Positions 11,679 to 64,000 of a stretch of DNA of 64,000 nucleotides are shown one piece after another. The position numbers were made by a program, and so were the translations under genes. Under the pieces are notes generated by a model that had not been told where the DNA came from, did not search any database, and saw only the letters and a program-made list of their open reading frames with translations. The DNA is from Aldrovandia affinis (taxonomy: Eukaryota; Chordata; Actinopteri; Notacanthiformes; Halosauridae), in NCBI GenBank assembly GCA_029706075.1, contig JAINUG010000052.1, positions 1,693,998 to 1,757,997 of the forward strand, given 5' to 3'. The first letter of the stretch is position 1, and every line of letters starts with the position of its first letter.

Positions 11679-12953
11679 TACCGGTCAAAAGTTTTAGAAC
11701 ACCCCTATTTTTCTAGTTTTTACTGACATTTAAGCAGTGAATAACCTGAGTTAAGTCCAGTGAATAACCTGAAATGGTACAAAGGTAAGCGGTAAACTGC
11801 CAAAGGTTAAAAAAAAAAAAAAATTGTTACCAAAAACTGAAAAAATACTGTACATTTCAGAGTTATAAAAAAGGCTGTTTTCAGGGAACAGGTAATGGGT
11901 TAACAACTTACAGCTGTTCTGCAGCAATGGAAGTAAATTAAACCTTGAAAGTTGATTTCTACAATTCCTACAGGTGTCCCAACTTTTATTACTTACAAAC
12001 CCTCTGTCTGTATAAAAGAAGTGTTGGAACAGACTGTGTTACTACACCCTCTGAAGCATTATTTGGACAATATTGCACTGCAGGAAGTACTATATTGCTA
12101 TCATAATGGCGAGAAAAAGGCAATTAACAAAGGAAAACAGACAGACCATTATAATCCTTAAAAGTGTAGGTCTTTCCTTTAGAGAAATTGCAAAGGCTAA
12201 GGTGTCAGTGAGTACAGTTTCCTACACCATCAAAAGGCACTTGGAAACTGACAGGAAGAGGTCTGGCAGACCAAGCGACAACAAAATCAGAAGACAAGTT
12301 TCCGAGAGTCAATGTGATAGGTGGCACAGCTTAACACTAGTTGAAGTAAGGAAGTCTCAGTTTCAACTGTGAAGAGAAGACTTCAAGCTGCAGGTTTGAC
12401 AGGTCGAGTGGCAGTAAGAAAGCCATTGCTAAGATGGCAAAATACGAAAAAGGCTTGCCTGGGCCATGCAGCACCGCCAGTGGACTACTGAAGACTGGAA
12501 GAAGGTCTTACGGACCGATGAATACAAATTTGAAATCTTCGGTTCATCACACAGGGTTTTTGTACGCCGAAATCATGGAATGGCCAGCACAGTCTCCAGA
12601 CTTAAACCCCATCGAGCTGGTTTGGGATGAACTAGACAGAAGGGTGAAAGCAAATCAACCTACAAGTGCAATACATTTGTGGGAACTTCTGCAACAGTGT
12701 TGGGAAGAACTTTCCGAACAATATTTGATTTCCGTTGTAGAAAGAATGCCACGAGTGTGTTCGGCTGTTATATCTGCACTTTGAGTCAAAAATTTCGATT
12801 ACATTTTCTTAAACTAAACAATTCCATGATTTATTTTTTATCGCCAATCGTTTATTTGTTATATGCTTTAATTTCAGAGTACATTGAAACATTAAACTGT
12901 GTACATTTCAATAAAATTTGAAAAATGGAGGTGTTCTAAAACTTTTGACTGGT
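11679..12953 (+). mobile_element. Tc1-like transposon, internally deleted, inside hAT X
   Basis: Terminal repeats ACCGGTCAAAAGTTTTAGAAC and GTTCTAAAACTTTTGACTGG bound a transposase pseudogene that starts at 12106 ([20 protein letters not shown], a paired-like DNA-binding domain with GRPSDNK hook). The first catalytic Asp is kept (RTDEYKFEIFGSS), and so is the last block (SPDLNPIELVWDEL). Near 12565 the reading jumps between them, so the segment with the second catalytic Asp is deleted. Confidence 0.88.
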
Positions 12954-17497: not shown

Positions 17498-17739
17498 CAG
17501 TGGTGGACACTAACAAAGTGTAGTTTACTTTGACTTATTACTGTACTTAAGTCGTTTTCAAGTATCTGTGCTTGCCTAAGTATTTCCATTTTTACTTTTA
17601 TTTTTTACCTTCACTCCCCTACATTTTAAAAGCAAATGGGCTTAAATATAGGACATTTTACTTTTACTGGAGTAATATTTTATCAGGGTATCTGTACTTT
17701 TACTCAAGTAAAGGGTTTGTGTACTTCGTCCACCACTTA
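17498..17739. mobile_element. hAT-like MITE (CAGTGGTGGAC ends), copy 1
   Basis: Begins CAGTGGTGGACACTAACAAA and ends CTTCGTCCACCACT. The same sequence is found inverted at 18521-18767. The interior is AT-rich with GTACTTAAGT and ACTCAAGTAAAG motifs. Confidence 0.75.
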
Positions 17740-18520
17740 CTGGTCCCATCGTCCCACATACTGTACATGTATATGGTATGGATATGTTCCTTGGCGGGGG
17801 AGTTGGTGTTACTCTCCAGGAGCAGGTGGCTGGCAGCCTACAAACAGCATGAATGACTTGTTTGGAAGTAACAACAGTGGCACTTGAGGAAAGTGCTTCC
17901 TTGATAAGAGCTTAAACCAGTTTCTTCACACAGAGAGAGGCCTCTTGCACCATTGTATCTCTTCTGTCTCCGCCACAAGACAGAAATGCGTTCACAAGTG
18001 GGCGGTTTGGTTACATTCGGCCTCGCCTTTGAGCACAGAGAACTGAGTGTTTTTATTGGTTGAGCGTTTGACGGATGTGAGAGAGGTCAATCGTCTGTAT
18101 GTTAATTGAAACAGTGGGATTCCTGCTTCAAGAATTCTTGAAGACTTTCACTTAAGTTTTCTGATCAGTCCAAAAAAAAACAACCTACCTTTTAGAATGA
18201 GCATGTTATTGACTTCTTTTTATTGTAGATGTTGTTGTAGTTTGACTTATTTTATATTATTAGAGCCCACATGTTTTACTCTGCGTTTGTTTTGACTTGC
18301 ACTTTGTCTACTAAACTTATTTTGTTGTTTTCCTTTTGTTTTGAATTTTTTTGTTTGTTCATTCTGTAACATTGGGCCCACAATCCCGCCGTATGAATTA
18401 AGTAAATAAATAAATAAATAAATGCCTCGAATTTATAATTAACGGAAAGGGTCGGACTGCTGGAACAAGAAGTCAAATTGCGTGTTGTGTGTAGCTTTTT
18501 ACCTGCAATAAACTTGGGAT

Positions 18521-18767
18521 CAGTGATGGACAAAGTACACAAACCCTTTACTTGAGTAAAAGTACAGATACCCTGATAAAATATTACTCCAGTAAAAGTA
18601 AAAAATCCCACATTTAACCCCATCTATCTTTGAAATGTAGGGGAGTGAAAGTAAAAATAAAAGTAAAAAATTGAAATACTTAAGTAAACACAGATACTTG
18701 AATAATGTACTTAAGTACAGTAATAACTAAAAGTAAAGTAAATGTACTTTGTTAGTGTCCACCACTG
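18521..18767. mobile_element. hAT-like MITE (CAGTGGTGGAC ends), copy 2, inverted
   Basis: Begins CAGTGATGGACAAAGTACAC and ends TTAGTGTCCACCACTG. The flanks CTTGGGAT and GTTGGGAG agree at 6 of 8 positions, a plausible aged hAT duplication. Confidence 0.75.
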
Positions 18768-20404: not shown

Positions 20405-20870
20405 CGTGTAGAGCATGGTGGATACTGTGCTGTTTAAGTGGCCTAGCTAGCTGTAGAGCAGGGGTGGGCAATTCCGGTCCTGGAGGGGCATGCAGGTTTT
20501 TGTTTCTACCAATTACACTGGCTCAATTAGTTAATTCGTTGGATACACCGATGTTGGTTCACTTGTAGATTATACCATAGTAACATGTTTCATATGGGAA
20601 CACAAGAACAGTCTTCAACTGTCATTCATGGGCCTATCAAGAAATGTAGCTAAAATGTCAGATCATGTAAACGATTGGGCTAATTAAATAATTAAGAGCA
20701 GAAGTTGGCATAAAATCCAGAAACGGATACGGCCCTCCTTGCCCATCCCTGCTGTAGAGCCTGGTGGTAGAAACTGTGCTGTTTTAGTGTATTTAAATGG
20801 CCTAGCTAGCTGTAGAGCGTGGTAGACACTCTGCTTTTTCAATGTGTTTAAATGGCCTTTTGCCTTTTAC
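20405..20870. repeat. Local repeat of about 60 bp, split by a hAT MITE
   Basis: Three copies of a unit starting TGTAGAGC-TGGTRGA and running to AAATGGCCTAGCTAG lie at about 20405-20450, 20752-20810 and 20811-20860. The MITE at 20459-20751 duplicated 8 bases of one unit when it inserted. Confidence 0.7.
20459..20751. mobile_element. hAT-like MITE with perfect 8-bp target duplication
   Basis: Begins CAGGGGTGGGCAATTCCGG and ends CCTCCTTGCCCATCCCTG. The flanks CTGTAGAG at 20451-20458 and 20752-20759 are identical, which confirms both boundaries and the hAT class. No coding capacity. Confidence 0.85.
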
Positions 20871-20878
20871 CCCTGCAG

Positions 20879-21496
20879 GTACCAGAGGTCATCAGCAGCA
20901 TCAGGCAGGTGTCGAAAGCCGCCCTCAAAGAAGACTCCAAGCCCAAGCAGGAGGCCGACGAGGCCTTCTACAACTCCCAAAAGTTTGAGGTCCTGTACTG
21001 CGGCAAGGTGACCGTGGCACAGAAGAGGGCGCCTTCTACCCTGATCGATGACTGCATCGACCAGTTCCGGCAGCACGAGGCGGAGCGCAGGCGCCCACGC
21101 CCGCTCAATGGCGGGGGGCAGCGGGGCGCTGCCGAGCCACCCGTCGAGTTCATCATGGGGGAGGAGGAGCCCCTGACCTCCCCCCGCGCTCTGTCCGCCA
21201 CCGGGCCAGACCAGGATGTCGCGGAGACTGAGGATGGGGTCGGGGAAGCTGGGGCGGGCCTCACTGGCAGCCTCAGCCTGGGGAGCTTCCGTGCAGCCTT
21301 CCCTGAATGCATCCTGGAGGACTCCGGGTTCGACGAGCAGCAGGAGTTCCGCACCCGGTGCAACAGCCTGGCTGCCGGGCCGCAGCGAAGGCCGCGGGAG
21401 GGGGCTCTGAAGGCCCCGACACGCAGGAGACACGCCAGTGCCCCGAGCCACGTGCAGCCCACCGATGCCGACAAGAACCGCACCATGCTCTTCCAG
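20879..21496 (+). CDS. tbc1d4: tbc1d4 exon 2 (206 codons)
   Basis: The acceptor CCCCTGCAG precedes 20879 and the donor CAG|GTACAT follows 21496; both borders are phase 0. It encodes the end of PTB1 ([16 protein letters not shown]), [20 protein letters not shown], and the linker with two Akt-type sites: RTRCNS (human S318-like, Ser codon 21365-21367) and RRRHAS (human S341-like, Ser codon 21437-21439). It ends RTMLFQ, where PTB2 starts. The exon is GC-rich compared with the introns. Confidence 0.96.
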
Positions 21497-24400
21497 GTAC
21501 ATGCGTCGCACGCCTTCGTTCCATCCCCCTGTCCGCAGGGCCGGATCTTGACGTTCATGGGCCCTCTAGGCCCCACCTCCATTTTGGGCCCGCCCAAATC
21601 CCCCTCCGGGGGGATTGGCATTCTGGGAGATGGAGTTCTTAGATTTAACGTTAGATTGGAGATATGATTTAATTTGCGTTATTTATTTTTTATGACTACT
21701 ACTACTAATAATAATAATAATAAGGTTAATAATAATAATAATTATAATAATAATAATAAAAGATGAACATACGCTACCGGTCAAAAGTTTTAGAACACCC
21801 ACATTTTTCCAGTTTTTACTGAAATTTAAGCAGTACAATGAATAATCTGAAATGGTACAAAGGTAAGCAGTAAACTGCCAGAGGTTAAAAAAAAAAATAC
21901 AAAATTAAAAGTTTAGGTTACCAAAAACTGAAAAATAATGTAAATTTCGGAGTTATAAAAAAGGCCCTTTTCAGGGAACAAGTAATGGGTTAACAACTTA
22001 CAGCTGTTCTGCAGCAATGGAAGTAAATTAAGCCTTGAAAGTTGATGCAAACAATTCCTACAGGTGTCCCAACTTTTGTTGATGCCCTCTACCCCTCTGT
22101 CTGTATAAAAGCAGTGTTGGAACAGACTGTGTTACTACACCCTCTGAAGCATTATTTGGACAATATTGCACTGGAGGAAGTACTATATTGCTATCATAAT
22201 GGTGAGAAAAAGGCAATTAACAAAGGAAAACAGACAGACCATTATAATCCTTAAAAGTGTAGATCTTTCCTTTAGAGAAATTGCAAAGGCTAAGGTGTCA
22301 GTGAGTACAGTTTCCTACATCATCAAAAGACACTTGAAAACTGGAGGAAACTCTGACAGGAAGAGGTCTGGCAGACCCAAAGCCACAACAAAATCAACAA
22401 AAAGTTTCTGAGAGTCAACAGCTTGTGTGATAGGCGGCACAGCTTAACACTGGTCGAAGTAAGGAAGTCTCAGTTTCAACTGTGAAGAGAAGACTTCGAG
22501 CTGCAGGTTTGACAGGTCGAATGGCAGTAAGAAAGCCATTGCTAAGATGCTAAATAAGAAAAAGAGGCTTGCCTGGGACATGAAGCACCGCCAGTGGACT
22601 ACTGAAGACTGGAAGGAGGTCTTATGGACCGATTCATCAAAATCTGAAATCTTCGGTTCATCACGCAGGGTTTTTGTATGCCGTCGAGTAGGTGAAAGGA
22701 TGGTTCCTCAGTGTGTGACACCAACTGTCAAACATGGAGGAGGAAGCGTGATGGTCTGGGGCTCTTTTGCTAGATCCAGAGTCAGCGACTTGCACAGAGT
22801 GACTGGCACCCTGAAGCAAAAGGGCTATCACAGCATTTTGCAGCGCCATGCAATACCCTCTGGTCTACGCTTAGTTGGTCAGGGGTTCATCCTACAGCAA
22901 GATAATGACCCAAAACATACCTCCAGGCTATGTCAGAACTACCTTAGAAGAAAAGAACAAGCCGGTAGGCTATATATACTGTATATATATATATATAAAA
23001 AATAATATCAATATGAATATTTTCCATATAATTCCGGCCCCATGCAACGTTTGGGCCCAAGGCCCAGGCCTTGTCGGCCTATGCGGAGATCCGACCCTGC
23101 CTGTCCGCCCTTCGTTGCCTGCTTGACACCAGGAAACTAGCTGGACTTGCACAATTTTTAGAAATGCTCAAGTTACTTTTGTGAAGGTATCGACTATAAA
23201 TAGTCATACACTGCTATTCAGACACTGTTTCCTACTGGAAAAGAATGCATTCCACACCTGTAGTTGCTGGCCCTTTACGAGTGCGAGCTACCTATCACGG
23301 TCGCGGTTTGAAACCCAACTGTACCAGACCGGGTTTGATGGAGAGCCCCAATCGGGGGCGGCATTTGGCTGTCCGCCCCAGGGGGGAGGGTGCAGGGAGA
23401 GCCGGCACGAGCTCGCCGAGGAGTGGTAGAGTGTCCTCGTAAACACCGTTGGGCGAGTTCCGTCTCGGAGGAAGCAAACAGTGCCTCGAGGTATTAGCTC
23501 GTCCCGCGGATGTGGGCGGCGGGTTTGTGGGGGAGGATAAAATCAAAAAGAAATGGAGGGTATAATTGGCTACCAAATTGGGAGAAAAACGGAAAAAAAA
23601 ATAATGTTGAACACCCTCTTTGTGTTGAATCCCATTTTTCAGTAATAAAGTGTAGCCTTTTCCAAAGGACACTGAAGAGCTTGTTAACCGAGTTCCGGCT
23701 GCAGCACTGTTTACATTGCCTTGTATCCTCATGAATTTAATTAGGTAAGGCTGTCACTGTCAGATTTCACTGCCCTTTATTCTCAATGGAAGTCAACTAC
23801 CGGAGAAATCTTTTGTGACCTTGATTGCGTGCGTATGTGCGTGCGTGCGTGGACTGAAAGGGGCTCTGGAGAAGAAAGCCATGAGCTGTGTTAAGAGACG
23901 CTCATCATAGGATGTTTTTGCTTTGGCATGTTTTCCCTGCTCGCTCTCTCTCTCCCTTGTGATCAGCGCTGTGCTAGCGGAGAGCTACTAATGAGTGCTG
24001 GATTTTGTTCCACAGGTTGGGCGCTTTGAAGTCAACCTCATTAGCCCCGATAGCAAGACGGTGGTGCTGGAGAAGAACTTCAAGGACATTTCTTCCTGTT
24101 CTCAGGTGTGTACTGGGACCTTTTGTGCTAGTATCTTATTTTCTTCCTTCACAAGTGTAAAATGAATCGGCCCACTTCCACGGTCTATCACCTTCCACTG
24201 ATTTAACGATTCCAGAGCGAATTCTTTTGACAAATTTGACTTCGACCCAAGGAGCAGTGTTCTGGGCCTTTTGTCAAATATCGGTTGTGCAACCTCCAAA
24301 CAGGTGTTTCACTGTTTATCTTGGAGCCGAATCATGGGAAAGGGTAGATGTAACAATGCAAACCAACGCAAACATGGAAATAAAATAAAACACGTTTTAA

Positions 24401-44300: not shown

Positions 44301-47300
44301 AGATGTCAGGGAACAAACAGTCAATATGGAGGCATCCCTGTTGGATCAGACCACTGAAGTCAGACTCCAGGGGGTGCCACACCATTCAGCCTGAAGTCCG
44401 GTGTTGTAAAGAGCAGGGATGTGATTTTTCCTGATTAGTCAGGAAATACTGATATTCTGCTGCTAAATGTTTCTGACTATTTGGCTTTATTTGCTGAACC
44501 TTCTCTCCAGCTATTAGCTGTCAAACGGTGCAACATTTCTTAATGTGTATGCTTATGATGTACACACGTCCACAAGATATCTATGGTCTGAAAATATTTA
44601 CATTTCCTGATTTAACCAGGAAAAGAAATCACATGCCTGAAAGAGGTATTATATTAAGGTAGAGGCTAGATGCCACCCATGCAGAGGACGAGATGCGATT
44701 CAAGATGTGATTGGCCTGTTGTTTTTTGTCGATTTTACAGTGCGCGTGAGCGAACCCTAACTGTAACCCAAACCTAAACCCCTAAATCTAACAATAACCC
44801 GAACCGTCAGTTACGATGGTCAATTTCGCGCATTTGACGTCACGCGTACTTTGCATCTCTGTCCTCTGCATGGGGGGGCATCTAGCCTCTACCATTATAT
44901 AACATAACATACGCCATTTAGCAGACGTTTTTATCCAAAGCGACTTACAGTAGTGAATGCATACATTTTTCAGTATATGTGGTCCCAGTGGAAATTGAAC
45001 CCACAACCTAAGCGTTGTCGGCACCATGTTCCTACTGAGCCACACAGAACCACAGCAGCGAAGCGGTATATTACAGCCCGTCATATTATATTCCCCCCTC
45101 TGTGTTTCCCCCCCCCCCCCGCCCCCTCCCGTTGCAGGACGGACATTCCCCACGCACCAGTACTTCACGACTCAGCTGGGCGCGGGGCAGCTGTCCCTGT
45201 ACAACCTTCTGAAGGCATACTCGCTGCTGGATACGGAGGTGGGGTACTGCCAGGGCATCAGCTTCGTGGCGGCTGTGCTGCTGCTCCACATGGCCGAGGA
45301 GCAGGCCTTCGACACGCTCAAGTTCCTCATGTACGACCTGGGCTTCCGCCGGCGCTACCGGCCCGACATGACCTCCCTGCAGGTGGGTCCCAACCATCGA
45401 CTGTAGACCGTCGTGGTCCGTGGTTCACCTTGAAGGGCACGTGAAGGGTGGTCTGCCCCTAATTTTGTGGGCAAGGTAATCTAGAACAAAAAACATATGC
45501 AAATCACAAAATGTGATTATCCTGAATAACTTCCAGTGGGGAGGGAGTCTCTCATCTTGGGGAGGATTGGCTGTCCGCCCCAGGGGGAGGGGGGAGGGTG
45601 AGCCGGCACAAGCTCGCTGAGAAGTGTGAAGGGGGGCGAGTAGGGGGGCGAGTTAATGGGGGAGGGCATATCGAAAGAAATAGAGGGTATAATTAGCCAC
45701 CAAATTGGTAAACAAATAAAAACTAAAAAACAACTGGTGTGGGGGGGTAGTCTATCATAAACTCCACATCTCATCACAATGTTAGATTCTTGAAGCGCGT
45801 GACTGATCATAGAGACCCGTTGCGGCTGATGTGAATCCACCAGCGTGCACGGCGATGGTTTAAGTCTCCCCATACGGCGTGGCGTGACCCAAAGGTTGCC
45901 CCTCGTCCCACGCACTGAGGTCCAAACCAGGGGCGTGGCTAGGGATTAGCTATAGCCCCGGACCTTTTTTGGCAAATTAATTTTTTTTTTTTTATATTAT
46001 TGACTGTTGTTTGACGTTGAGCATTACTGATACAACCACAAACACTGCATTGCAAGTGTTAAATGTAGCCCACCCCCCTTCCCCTGACAGGATGACGATA
46101 ACTCGCTGCGTGATGCGATTATTATCTAGACTACACTACTGGTCAACATTTTTTGAACACCCCATTTTCCAGTTTTTACTGAAATTTAAGTCCAGTGAAT
46201 AACCTGAAATGGTACAATGGTAAGCGGTAAACTGCCAGAGGTAAAAAATAAAAAATAAATAAAAAAAAGTTTACATTTCATTATTACAAATAATGTACAT
46301 TTCAGAGTTATAAAAAAAGGCCCTTTTCAGGGAACAAGTAATGGGTTAACGTGGGTTAACAGTCACTCTGTGCAAGTCGCCGACTCTGGATCCAGCAAAA
46401 GAGCCTCAGACCATTACGCTTCCTTTCGCCTACTCGACAGCCTACAAAAACCTTTCAAAATGTCAAGATTTCAATGGCCCAGGCAAGCCTCTTTTTCTTA
46501 TTTTGCCATCTTAGCAATGGCTGTCTTACTGCCACTTGACCTGTCAAACCTGCAGCTCGAAGTCTTCTCTTCACAATTGAAACTGATACTTCCTTACTTC
46601 GACCAGTGTTAAGCTGTGCTTGAAGCTGTTGTCCTGTGAGCCGCCTATCACGCAAGCTGTTGACTCTCAGAAACTTGTCTTCTGATTTTGTTGTGGCTTT
46701 GGGTAACCTAAACTTTTTTTTTTTTTATAACCTCTGGCAGTTTACTGCTTACTTTTGTACCATTTCAGGTTATTCACTGGACTTGAAATGCTTAAATTTA
46801 ATTAAAAACTGGAAAATGGGGGTGTTCTAAAACTTTTGACCCGTAGTGTAGGTCGTGGACTCAGACGTTTGCAATGTCTAGTCACATGCTTGGTCCCGGC
46901 TCATCCTCCTCCTCTTCTTCCTCTTCCTCTTCCTCTAGATCCAGATGTACCAGTTGTCCAGGTTGCTGCACGACTACCACCGCAGCTTGTACAGCCACCT
47001 GGAGGAGCACGAGATCGGCCCCAGCCTGTACGCCGCCCCCTGGTTCCTCACACTCTTCGCCTCGCAGTTCCCTTTAGGGTTCGTGGCCCGCGTCTTTGGT
47101 ACGTGCCACACCCCACCCCACCCGCGCAGTCCTGCTGAGTCCTGAGTCCGTTAACAGCTGAGTCCTGTTAACGCGTACAGCGGCAACCTTGCACTACTTC
47201 CTACGTATGCCATTTAGCAGACGCTTTTTATCCAAAGCAATTTACAGTAGTGACATTTTTGAGTGTACAGTATATGTGATCCCAGTTGGAATCGAACCCA

Positions 47301-60222: not shown

Positions 60223-60863
60223 GCCCTTTGCCTTCAGTACAGCTTCAATCCTTCATTGAATGCTGTTATACAAGTTTTGAACTGTTTCTAGTGGGATATT
60301 GGACCATTCTTCAAGAAGGAAACCCACAAGTTCTACGCTGCGCTCTACACTCCAGAACTTCCCATAATGGTTCAATGATGTTTAGATATGGTGGTTGTGG
60401 AGGACATGGAAGGTGTTCGACGTCATCCTGGTGTTCATGAAACAACTCTTGAATCTGTTTAGCAGTACGTATGGGGGTGTTTTCATTTTGTAATATGGGA
60501 ACATTTTGAGGAAACGATGTTTGCACCATAAGGTGCACCTGGTCACCTAAAATGGCTTTGTATGCCATAATTCTACCATGCAGAGGAATAATTGGACACA
60601 TTGACTTCCACGACATGGCTGCCCATACCATAACAGATCCACCACCATGTTTAAACGTTGGGAACAGGCAATGTGGATTCCTTTGGTTTTCTCCAATCAT
60701 ACACCCATCCAGATGTAGGAAAAAGAGAAAAAGACAGCTCATCAGACCATATTACCTTCTTCAGCTCCTCAGAAGTCCAGGTTTTGTGCTTATTACACCA
60801 GGTTTTGCATTGCTACACGTTGGCCTTGGTTACAAGTGGACTCCCAAATGCAATTCAGTACTC
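60223..60863 (-). pseudogene. Tc1-like transposase remnant
   Basis: Minus-strand reading: CNKHKTWTSEELKKVIWSDE (first Asp kept), [28 protein letters not shown], then QNENTPIRTA, where the second catalytic Asp has become Asn, and PPYLNIIEPLWEVLE, where the SPDLN Asp has become Tyr. N-terminal sequence probably continued past 62029 before the SWIM element inserted. Confidence 0.8.
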
Positions 60864-62028
60864 CAATTGACCCTTCGCTAAACCACGCCCCCCTTAGTTA
60901 TTGTTGCTAAGTACGTCAAGCTTTCAGAGCCAGTATGGCGCTACCGCTGTCGATAATGGCTCTCCCTGGAGAAATATCAAATTTTTGGAAAATAGACGAA
61001 GACATTAGCGATAGAACCAGACAGAAGGGCCTACAGTATGCGTTCGAAGGGTATCACCATTACTCATCCAAAAAATTACGCCAAAAAAATTAGGATAGAA
61101 GGGATAGCCTACAGATCACAAAGTAAAAGTGAATCACCTGGCGATTGAGACAAGAGGACAACGACATTAAGGAGCAACACAGTTCCTGTAAAGCTGGGTA
61201 CGTCTTTATTCACTTTATTCACTATTACAATCATTAAAAAGCAAATGCAGTAGGCCTATATAACGTTACATTCAGTAGTAAGTTAGCTAGCATTAGCTAA
61301 CTAACGTAACATTAGTAGCCTGTGCTGTAACGACATTACTCTGGTTAGCTCCACAGGTTTCTGCGCCCATTGACAACGTGGTGAAATAGTAATGATAGTA
61401 ACATCTTAACGTTAGCAAGCTGTCTGGATCACGAATAACAAAGCTAACATTTAGTCTAACTTTACCAACGTTGCAACCCGGAGCTGTATATCCAGACCGT
61501 AGCCACGTTAGCGTCGCTGGCTAAGCTTGCTAGCGCCATGGATAGCGCCATGGATAGCTACGAACCTTACGATAATTTAGGTTAACCAGCTAACATCTGA
61601 TAACAACAGCATAACATTATTTTACGGTTGATAAGAGTAATTACTTAGCTTGGAGCAGACAAAGCTGTGCTTGTTGATCTTGGAGGTGTTCAACTGGGCA
61701 TGAGGACATCCACACATAGCTTTATCCACAGTCTACACTTTTCAGGATTTGATTTCGGTTTTGTAAAGGGAAAAAAACGTATATCTCCTTCAAACCTCTC
61801 TGGGTAACGAGTGTCACTGTTACACGTGCCCCAGGCACAACGTTTAACCATAATTTGCTAAAAATATGCAAAACCAGCTCGAAAATGAAGAAAAATTCTA
61901 ATTTTTGCGTGAAAGTCAATGGAGGGCACGTCGGATCATCTGTCAGAGTATCTGTCGGAGTATGTAAAACACGGCGCTGTGATTGGCCAGTTTGCGTTTT
62001 GGGGCGTGGTTTAGCGAAGGGTCAATTG
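60864..62028 (+). mobile_element. Terminal-inverted-repeat element carrying a SWIM-gene exon remnant
   Basis: 28 bp starting CAATTGACCCTTCGCTAAAC (60864-60891) recur exactly inverted at 62001-62028. Inside, ATG 60935 opens MALPLSIMALPGEISNFWKI and continues EDISDRTRQKGLQYAFEGYH to a stop at about 61091. Further frames give IRIEGIAYRSQSKSE, HLAIET, and EDNDIKEQHSSCKAG, followed by a GT splice-donor-like GG|GTACGT. That order and the CKAG at the end match the start of the SWIM-zinc-finger/YqaJ-type proteins I recall from fish. The remaining 800 bp are non-coding. It lies inside a Tc1 remnant. The superfamily is not known to me, and the length of the target duplication is ambiguous because CAATTG is palindromic. 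Confidence 0.65.
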
Positions 62029-62189: not shown

Positions 62190-62421
62190 TAATACAGCTA
62201 ACAGTGTGTGAGTTGACTACATGGGTGTGAGTGTGTCATGCTCTTACAATGTGAGTGAAATTAGGTCATGATTCTGCATGAGATTGACAACTGGTTACAG
62301 TTTGAGTAAGATTGAAATGTAGCTCCAGTGTGAGTGAGATTGACATTTAGTTTGAGCTGAGACCATCACATATATTTACAGTGTGAGTCAGACTCATTTA
62401 CAGTGTGAGACTGAGACATAG
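62190..62421 (+). repeat. Minisatellite, about 28-bp unit, left part
   Basis: Degenerate repeats of TTACAGTGTGAGTGAGACTG. The array continues at 62966 after an inserted LTR. Confidence 0.85.
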
Positions 62422-62965
62422 TGTAGTGTCCGTTGGGGTGGGGTGTCACTCAAGGACCTTTTCAGAGGGCATAGGCAGTTGAATAATCCAGAGGAGACAG
62501 TATTCAAAACAATAATTTTATTAAACTAAATACAAAACATAAAAAGGATGGGGAATTAGGGAAACCAAACACATATAGTCCACTATCCTTCTCTTTGTCT
62601 TTGTCTGTAATCCAAGTCACAAATACAATTCAGTTCCTCAAACAATCCAATACTCGGTACACAAAACGGGGTCCTCAAAACAATCCAAGTCAAACACAAA
62701 CCGCAATCTAAAACAATTTTATTTTACTCTCACCACTCTCCAATACACCAACCTACTCCCTCCCCATGTGACACAAAACAGTCCTTTAAATAGCTCCCCA
62801 AATTACCTCAGCTGCCAGCAGTCCCAATTGCTTCATACGCTTCAGCTGGTACTCAGATGTGGGACTGCAGGCTGCTGGGAACTGTAGTACTTTTTTCGTC
62901 CTGTTGCTCCCAAGAGTTAAATAGGCAGGCATCCATTTCTTAATATTGCCCCTTAAGATGCCACA
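62422..62965 (-). mobile_element. Solo LTR inserted in the minisatellite
   Basis: 544 bp with TGTAGTGTCC at one end and GATGCCACA at the other, so TG...CA on both strands. On the minus strand there is a TATA-like GCTATTTAAAGG and a poly(A) signal AATAAA, in LTR order. ATAG flanks both sides (62418-62421 and 62966-62969). Superfamily not determined. Confidence 0.65.
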
Positions 62966-63337
62966 ATAGTTACAGTGTGAGTGAGACTGATACACATTTA
63001 CAGTGCGAGTGAGACTGTCACATATATTTACGGTGTGAGTGATACTGACATATTTACAGTGTTAGACTGACACACATTTACAGTGTGAGACTGATACATA
63101 TTTACAGTGCGAATGAGACACGCATAGTTACAGTGTGAGTGAGACTGACACATTTACAGTGAGACATATTTACAGTGTGAGTGAGCCTGACACGTAGTTA
63201 CAGTGAGTGAGACTGACACATTTACAGTGAGACATATTTACAGTGTGAGTGAGACTGCCATATTTACAATGTGAAACTCACATATATTTACAGTGTGAGT
63301 GAGACTGACATATTTACAATGCGAGTGAGACTGACAT
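62966..63337 (+). repeat. Minisatellite, about 28-bp unit, right part
   Basis: Units such as ATTTACAGTGTGAGTGAGAC with TGACACAT spacers, about 13 copies with missing parts. Confidence 0.88.
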
Positions 63338-64000
63338 ATACACTATATGGCCAAAAGTCAGTGGACACCTGACCATCACACCTATATGAGCTTGTTGGAT
63401 ATCCCATTCTAAAACCATGGGCATTAATATGGAGTTGGACCGCCCTTTGTGGCTATGACAGCTGCCACTCTTGTGGGAAAGGCTTTCCACAAGATTTTGG
63501 AGTGTGTCTGTGGGAATTTGTTCCCATTCAGCCAAAACAGCATCTGTGAGGTCAGGCACTGATGTTTGACAAGAAGGCCTGGCTCACAATTGGCGTTCTA
63601 ATTCTTCCCAAAGGTGTTCAATGGGGTTGAGGTCAGGGCTCTGTGCAGGCCAATCGAGTTCCTCCACACCAAACTCGTCTAACCATGTCTTTATGGACCT
63701 CGCTTTGTGCACGGCCACAGTCATGCTGGAACAGCAAAGGGCCTTCCCCAAACTATTGCCACAAAGTGGCATTTTGGACTTTTACGCGCTATGCGCTTCA
63801 GCCCTCGTCTGCCCCGCTCTGTGAGTTTGCGTGGTCTACCACTTCGTGGCCGAGCTGTTGTTGCTCCTAGGCTTCGACTTCACAATAATAGCACTTACAG
63901 TTGACCAGGGCACATCTAGTAGGGCAGAAATTTCACGGACTGACTTCTGGCAAAGGTGGTTCCTATGACAGTGCCGCATTTAAAGTCACTGAGCTCTTTA
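63338..64000 (-). mobile_element. Tc1-like transposon, runs off the window
   Basis: The terminal repeat CACTATATGGCCAAAAGTCA with GTGGACACCTGACCATCAC begins the element. The minus strand encodes a transposase C-terminus with [20 protein letters not shown] (third catalytic Glu kept) near 63600-63660. The 5' half lies past 64000. Frames are broken. Confidence 0.85.

Follow-up and report, generated by a model that had tools for sequence, protein, structure and literature searches.

A short inverted-repeat element with two broken gene starts in Aldrovandia affinis: a probable internally deleted relic of an ISL2EU transposon

Introduction

In the genome of the fish Aldrovandia affinis, a 1165-bp stretch with perfectly complementary ends raises the question of which kind of mobile element it derives from and what is left of its genes. 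It lies within a window of 64,000 nt (contig JAINUG010000052.1, positions 1,693,998 to 1,757,997 of the forward strand), to which all coordinates below refer. A first-pass annotation, made from the sequence alone, considered the stretch a deleted relic of a DNA transposon and proposed that SWIM/YqaJ-type genes travel on such transposons.

In animals, a candidate group is described in which both kinds of protein-coding capacity occur together: ISL2EU elements encode a transposase with DDE, HTH and THAP parts and a YqaJ exonuclease protein, and duplicate AT upon insertion in A-AT-T (PMC4482050). In a survey of teleosts, ISL2EU was reported from five of eight species (PMC9179366).

Element Ends and Target Site

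The two exact 28-bp inverted repeats of the first-pass annotation were recovered. The arms at 60864-60891 and 62001-62028 are complementary in 28 of 28 positions, enclose 1109 nt and give an overall length of 1165 bp; past 28 bp the ends diverge. With up to 3 mismatches allowed, the 22-bp core of the repeat occurs at two sites in the window and at none in 100 shuffles. Exact searches with the core in prokaryote and virus collections yielded no stretch, neither in genome_contigs (22 bases) nor in viral_contigs (18 bases).

At both ends the outermost six bases are CAATTG, a palindrome, and the ends read CA-AT-TGACCC...GGGTCA-AT-TG. Probably CAATTG represents the target site rather than part of the repeat, and the true inverted repeat (TGACCC...) probably comprises 24 bp with the palindromic target supplying the remainder, because insertion into A-AT-T with doubling of AT leaves exactly CA-AT-[element]-AT-TG. 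The following features are proposed:

60866..60867, no strand: proposed AT target-site duplication, left copy, as read from the sequence within CA-AT-TG
60868..60891, plus strand: left terminal inverted repeat, 24 bp (28 bp counting the palindromic target)
62001..62024, minus strand: right terminal inverted repeat, 24 bp
62025..62026, no strand: proposed AT target-site duplication, right copy, as read from the sequence

Due to the palindromic nature of CAATTG, the duplication length is ambiguous in a single copy, so that 0, 4 or 6 bp fit equally well as the 2-bp AT duplication presumed here. A 3-bp TWA duplication fits neither element end. Under the AT reading, the perfect 24-bp repeat begins with TG, whereas ISL2EU termini are described as usually starting with GG (PMC4482050). 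This TG start, together with the fact that the palindrome allows a duplication of zero length, as given for Spy, which inserts in AAATTT without duplication (PMC4482050), would also suit a SWIM/YqaJ-bearing terminal inverted repeat (TIR) element of another kind, for example from another PHIS group such as PIF/Harbinger or Spy, or from an unnamed one. This alternative is taken up below with the coding remains.

Left Gene Fragment

Next to the left end, remains of a SWIM/YqaJ-type gene are located on the plus strand:

60935..61197, plus strand: broken first exon of a SWIM/YqaJ-type gene, from ATG to ..SSCKAG, not in a single frame (phmmer, tblastn)
61198..61348, plus strand: presumed intron 1, 151 bp, GTACGT..GGTTAG (sequence and spliced reading)
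61349..61370, plus strand: start of exon 2, (G)STGFCAH, the C..H end of the SWIM-type motif (match to P0001)

As noticed in the first-pass annotation, the ATG at 60935 opens a frame of 52 codons that is continued in other frames to ..SSCKAG, directly followed by GTACGT with a donor-like GT at 61198-61199. When the pieces of this gene were searched by phmmer against 5.8 billion proteins, two matches among four candidates were obtained, namely P0001 of Alosa alosa (E 4.2e-16, 53% identity) and P0002 of Merluccius polli (E 7.7e-4). In tblastn, the first exon was matched by P0001, P0002, P0008, P0009, P0011, and P0052. Pfam reported no family for the pieces alone in any of the four sequences. The protein match proposed in the first-pass annotation proved real; P0001 carries YqaJ (PF09588, E 1.7e-9) as well as Viral_alk_exo (E 1e-8). 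SWIM is below the Pfam cut-off in P0001 (E 0.12); nonetheless, C-S-C..C-A-H can be read clearly in this protein.

A search with P0001 found 48 proteins, P0001 counted, of which seven more were scanned with Pfam (P0008, P0009, P0014, P0019, P0025, P0037, and P0051). YqaJ was above the cut-off in all seven. SWIM exceeded the cut-off in P0051, was below it in P0008, P0009, and P0019, and was unlisted in the other three. Except for P0002, P0007, and P0052, the pattern C-x-C..C-x-H is present in all of 11 further relatives inspected (8 out of 11). SWIM/YqaJ proteins were found in several fish and invertebrates, where they are labelled, for instance, "uncharacterized protein".

The first-pass annotation let the frame end in CKAG at the GT. 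The donor-like GT is present, but the gene resumes at 61349-61370: the spliced reading gives CKAG-STGFCAH, as in residues 87-97 of P0001. The seven residues of the second exon are identical to residues 91-97 of P0001 (7/7) and occur in the frame left by the donor, with a stop codon immediately after. Against the element alone, this match reaches a tblastn E of 0.11, and STGFCAH was found in none of 20000 shuffles of 61198-61646. The tblastn alignment of P0001 extends past the donor to 61285 at low identity, which we take for a chance extension. Beyond STGFCAH, no more of P0001 or P0008 was detected above shuffles, and tblastn finds none of the YqaJ part in the window. The gene with the YqaJ exonuclease domain is represented by its start, matched to the YqaJ-bearing P0001.

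Right Gene Fragment

A second gene fragment, overlooked in the first-pass annotation, is located on the minus strand from 61851 to 61649 and contains a THAP-type sequence:

61649..61851, minus strand: broken first exon of a THAP-domain DDE transposase gene with one frame change (Pfam, phmmer, tblastn)
61381..61648, minus strand: presumed intron 1 of the transposase gene, 268 bp, splice sites broken (sequence)
61366..61380, minus strand: probable first codons of transposase exon 2, HVVNG (compared to HFVNG of P0003 and P0004)

On the minus strand, translation from the ATG at 61851 gives MVKRCAWGTCNSD... and, after one frame change, ends in ..FVCSK at 61649; correspondingly, tblastn covers this exon in two segments, 61851-61714 and 61717-61649. 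In Pfam the pieces hit THAP with E 4e-4 and 21.5 bits, a little short of the threshold (23.9). The protein search resulted in four matches among six candidates (P0003, P0004, P0005, and P0006). The best one, P0003 of Coilia grayii, shows 79% identity (E 2.2e-30); the others have E values of 2.8e-27 (Siganus canaliculatus), 7.8e-22 (Merluccius polli, named HARBI1), and 3.8e-12. According to precomputed Pfam assignments, HTH_Tnp_4 is present in all four, DDE_Tnp_4 in all except for P0004, and THAP in all except for P0005; in P0003, all three families are above the cut-off.

The presumed first intron begins with CT and ends with AC, compared to the expected GT and AG. The gene model of P0005 also departs from the common sequence right after CSK. 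In P0003 and P0004 the sequence reads CSK-HFVNG, and in the element HVVNG, directly continuing CSK, shares 4 of 5 residues with HFVNG. A match of at least 4 of 5 residues was reached by 122 of 20000 shuffles of 61361-61648. A 12-residue score at this position is not in excess over shuffles, which is expected if a deletion joint cuts the match. As judged from this short alignment, HVVNG at 61380-61366 is probably the start of the second transposase exon. Neither the HTH nor the DDE part of the transposase was found in the element by tblastn, and the search of the whole window likewise gave no DDE part. Like its partner, the THAP/HTH/DDE transposase gene is represented by its start, with a THAP hit under the cut-off and the phmmer match to P0003.

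The presence of a transposase exon next to the SWIM/YqaJ exon supports the earlier proposal that SWIM/YqaJ genes travel on a DNA transposon. This idea is not new, however, as the link between a YqaJ gene and a TIR transposon is already in print for ISL2EU (PMC4482050, PMC9179366).

Gene Arrangement and Deletion Joint

The two genes face each other. Their ATGs lie 67 bp (left) and 173 bp (right) from the element ends, and each first exon is interrupted by frameshifting. The left match stops at 61370 (..GCC CAT) and the right one at 61366 (..AAT GGG, on the other strand), so that the five bases CCCAT are common to both:

61366..61370, no strand: probable deletion joint, 5-base CCCAT overlap, placed from the two match ends

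From these match ends, a deletion joint probably lies at 61366-61370, between the two second exons at the shared CCCAT. Given such a joint, the whole middle of the element is accounted for as two first introns back to back. Later parts of both genes were searched for in this middle by 12-residue scores on both strands, and none exceeded shuffles. When 52 fetched proteins were compared to the whole window by tblastn, 10 of them matched at E <=0.05, all those matches being inside the element; for the element alone, every match with E <0.1 falls in the two first exons. In 100 shuffled copies of the element, no tblastn match at E 1e-3 occurred. Among related loci in viral_contigs (11 stretches for P0003 and 8 for P0001) and among 36 stretches for alignment A1 in genome_contigs, none was confirmed. 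The gene starts, the seven-residue match of left exon 2, and the cut-off genes all agree with the view of the first-pass annotation that a deleted relic is present.

Frame changes might in principle be assembly errors, with intact first exons in the short copy, and some of them are indeed located near runs of A. Yet they number more than one, both genes end in their second exons regardless, and the right intron deviates from GT..AG at both splice sites, which makes this explanation unlikely. A Pack-type capture, by which a TIR element took up pieces of two unrelated host genes, is compatible with fragments that are broken gene starts with introns. The pieces are, however, the starts of exactly the two genes of one known transposon, and capture would hardly pick two inward-pointing fragments with ATGs so close to the ends; we consider it highly improbable. 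An internally deleted transposon with its own two genes is the preferred reading.

Classification of the Element

With a probability of roughly 0.93, the element is a non-autonomous, internally deleted DNA transposon copy of the ISL2EU group (PHIS superfamily). The assignment is based on the pair of YqaJ and THAP-DDE transposase genes, which is the published gene set of ISL2EU, and on ends compatible with its target site. Because tblastn of the window detected no DDE part and no YqaJ part, the assignment to the group depends on the gene starts.

For ISL2EU, TIR lengths of 6-259 bp and an average of about 4840 bp for autonomous copies are given (Han et al. 2015, PMC4482050; PMC9179366). The present element resembles the group in both gene types, in ends compatible with A-AT-T, in a TIR within the range of 6-259 bp, and in its occurrence in a teleost. 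It differs from autonomous members by its length of 1165 bp compared to about 4840 bp and by having only broken gene starts left, from the usual members by the repeat start TG instead of GG, and from ISL2EU as published by the SWIM-type motif upstream of YqaJ in its intact relatives.

The possibility of another kind of TIR element, suggested by the TG start and the palindrome, is quite unlikely in view of the coding remains. The transposase exon is of the THAP type, with its closest match to a protein that combines THAP, HTH and DDE parts, and it is accompanied by a YqaJ partner, which is attributed to ISL2EU, while for other PHIS groups a Myb/SANT partner or none is described (PMC4482050, PMC9179366). 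The lack of a 3-bp TWA duplication at either end points in the same direction. PIF/Harbinger was ruled out for want of this duplication and for a partner fragment of the SWIM/YqaJ instead of the Myb/SANT type. Spy, with its AAATTT target and mostly a single gene, was ruled out by the two gene starts and the CAATTG flanks, the zero-length duplication alone being compatible.

Neighbouring Features

On both sides of the element, parts of a degraded Tc1-like transposase occur on the same (minus) strand, at 60449-60839 and 63775-63949; the C-terminal part was matched with E 7e-12 and the N-terminal part with E 0.047. Between the element and the distal Tc1-like part, a loose tandem array is situated at 62290-63340, with units like TTACAGTGTGAGTGAGA and many self-matches at 71-88% identity. 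The ISL2EU relic and this minisatellite-like stretch may have landed in or beside an older Tc1 copy.

Further away, 17502-18763 is occupied by a long inverted repeat in which several perfect stretches lie in near register, perhaps a fold-back or MITE-like element. At 11686-12947, inverted repeat ends (CAAAAGTTTTAGAACACC..) enclose a Tc1-like transposase piece at 12445-12579. Exons at 20852-21667 and 45026-45406, both on the plus strand, may belong to a TBC1D1/TBC1D4-type gene, which their translations resemble.

Proposed History

The parent element would have carried two convergent genes, one starting near the left end and coding for a SWIM/YqaJ exonuclease, the other starting near the right end and coding for a transposase with THAP, helix-turn-helix and DDE parts. 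It would have been cut and pasted by its own transposase. A deletion from the second exon of one gene to that of the other, probably at CCCAT, would have removed all between, sparing the two ends together with exon 1, intron 1 and a few exon 2 codons of each gene. Internally deleted, non-autonomous DNA transposons that retain their ends and a gene start are familiar from maize Ds and the Drosophila P-element derivative KP. The element resembles Ds and KP in having kept its ends and gene starts with the middle gone. Different from these, two convergent genes are involved; each retains its first exon, its first intron and the opening codons of the second exon, and each has lost its reading frame in the present copy.

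Owing to the frameshifts in its two first exons, the present copy cannot make either protein. The short copy would be mobile only in trans, presumably through an intact relative whose transposase recognises the 24-bp ends. As in THAP transposases in general, the THAP domain of the parental transposase probably binds the ends. The deletion may have preceded or followed insertion at the present site. Identical ends beside frameshifted exons may point to a move of the short form at a time when its genes had already decayed, although the ends are too short to be conclusive.

Truncated products of the P-element repress or titrate the full transposase. By analogy, one might speculate that the deleted form represents a multi-copy family that keeps the transposase start in order to provide a bare THAP domain, which would bind the ends and repress or titrate the full transposase. 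We regard this as very doubtful; if it held, the frameshifted present copy would be a dead member of that family.

Implications for SWIM/YqaJ Proteins

The role of the second ISL2EU protein in transposition is given as unknown (PMC4482050). In scallop, THAP, YqaJ and HTH_Tnp_4 genes are reported among the shrunken gene families (PMC10225492). The word SWIM does not occur in the main text of PMC4482050 and PMC9179366, and in the literature searched, judged from titles and abstracts, no work that joins SWIM, YqaJ and a transposon is apparent. A SWIM-type motif preceding YqaJ adds a little to what is known of ISL2EU. The present element suggests a reason for the occurrence of SWIM/YqaJ proteins in several fish and invertebrates: they are probably encoded by transposon genes, neither host nor viral, and such an origin is useful for their annotation.
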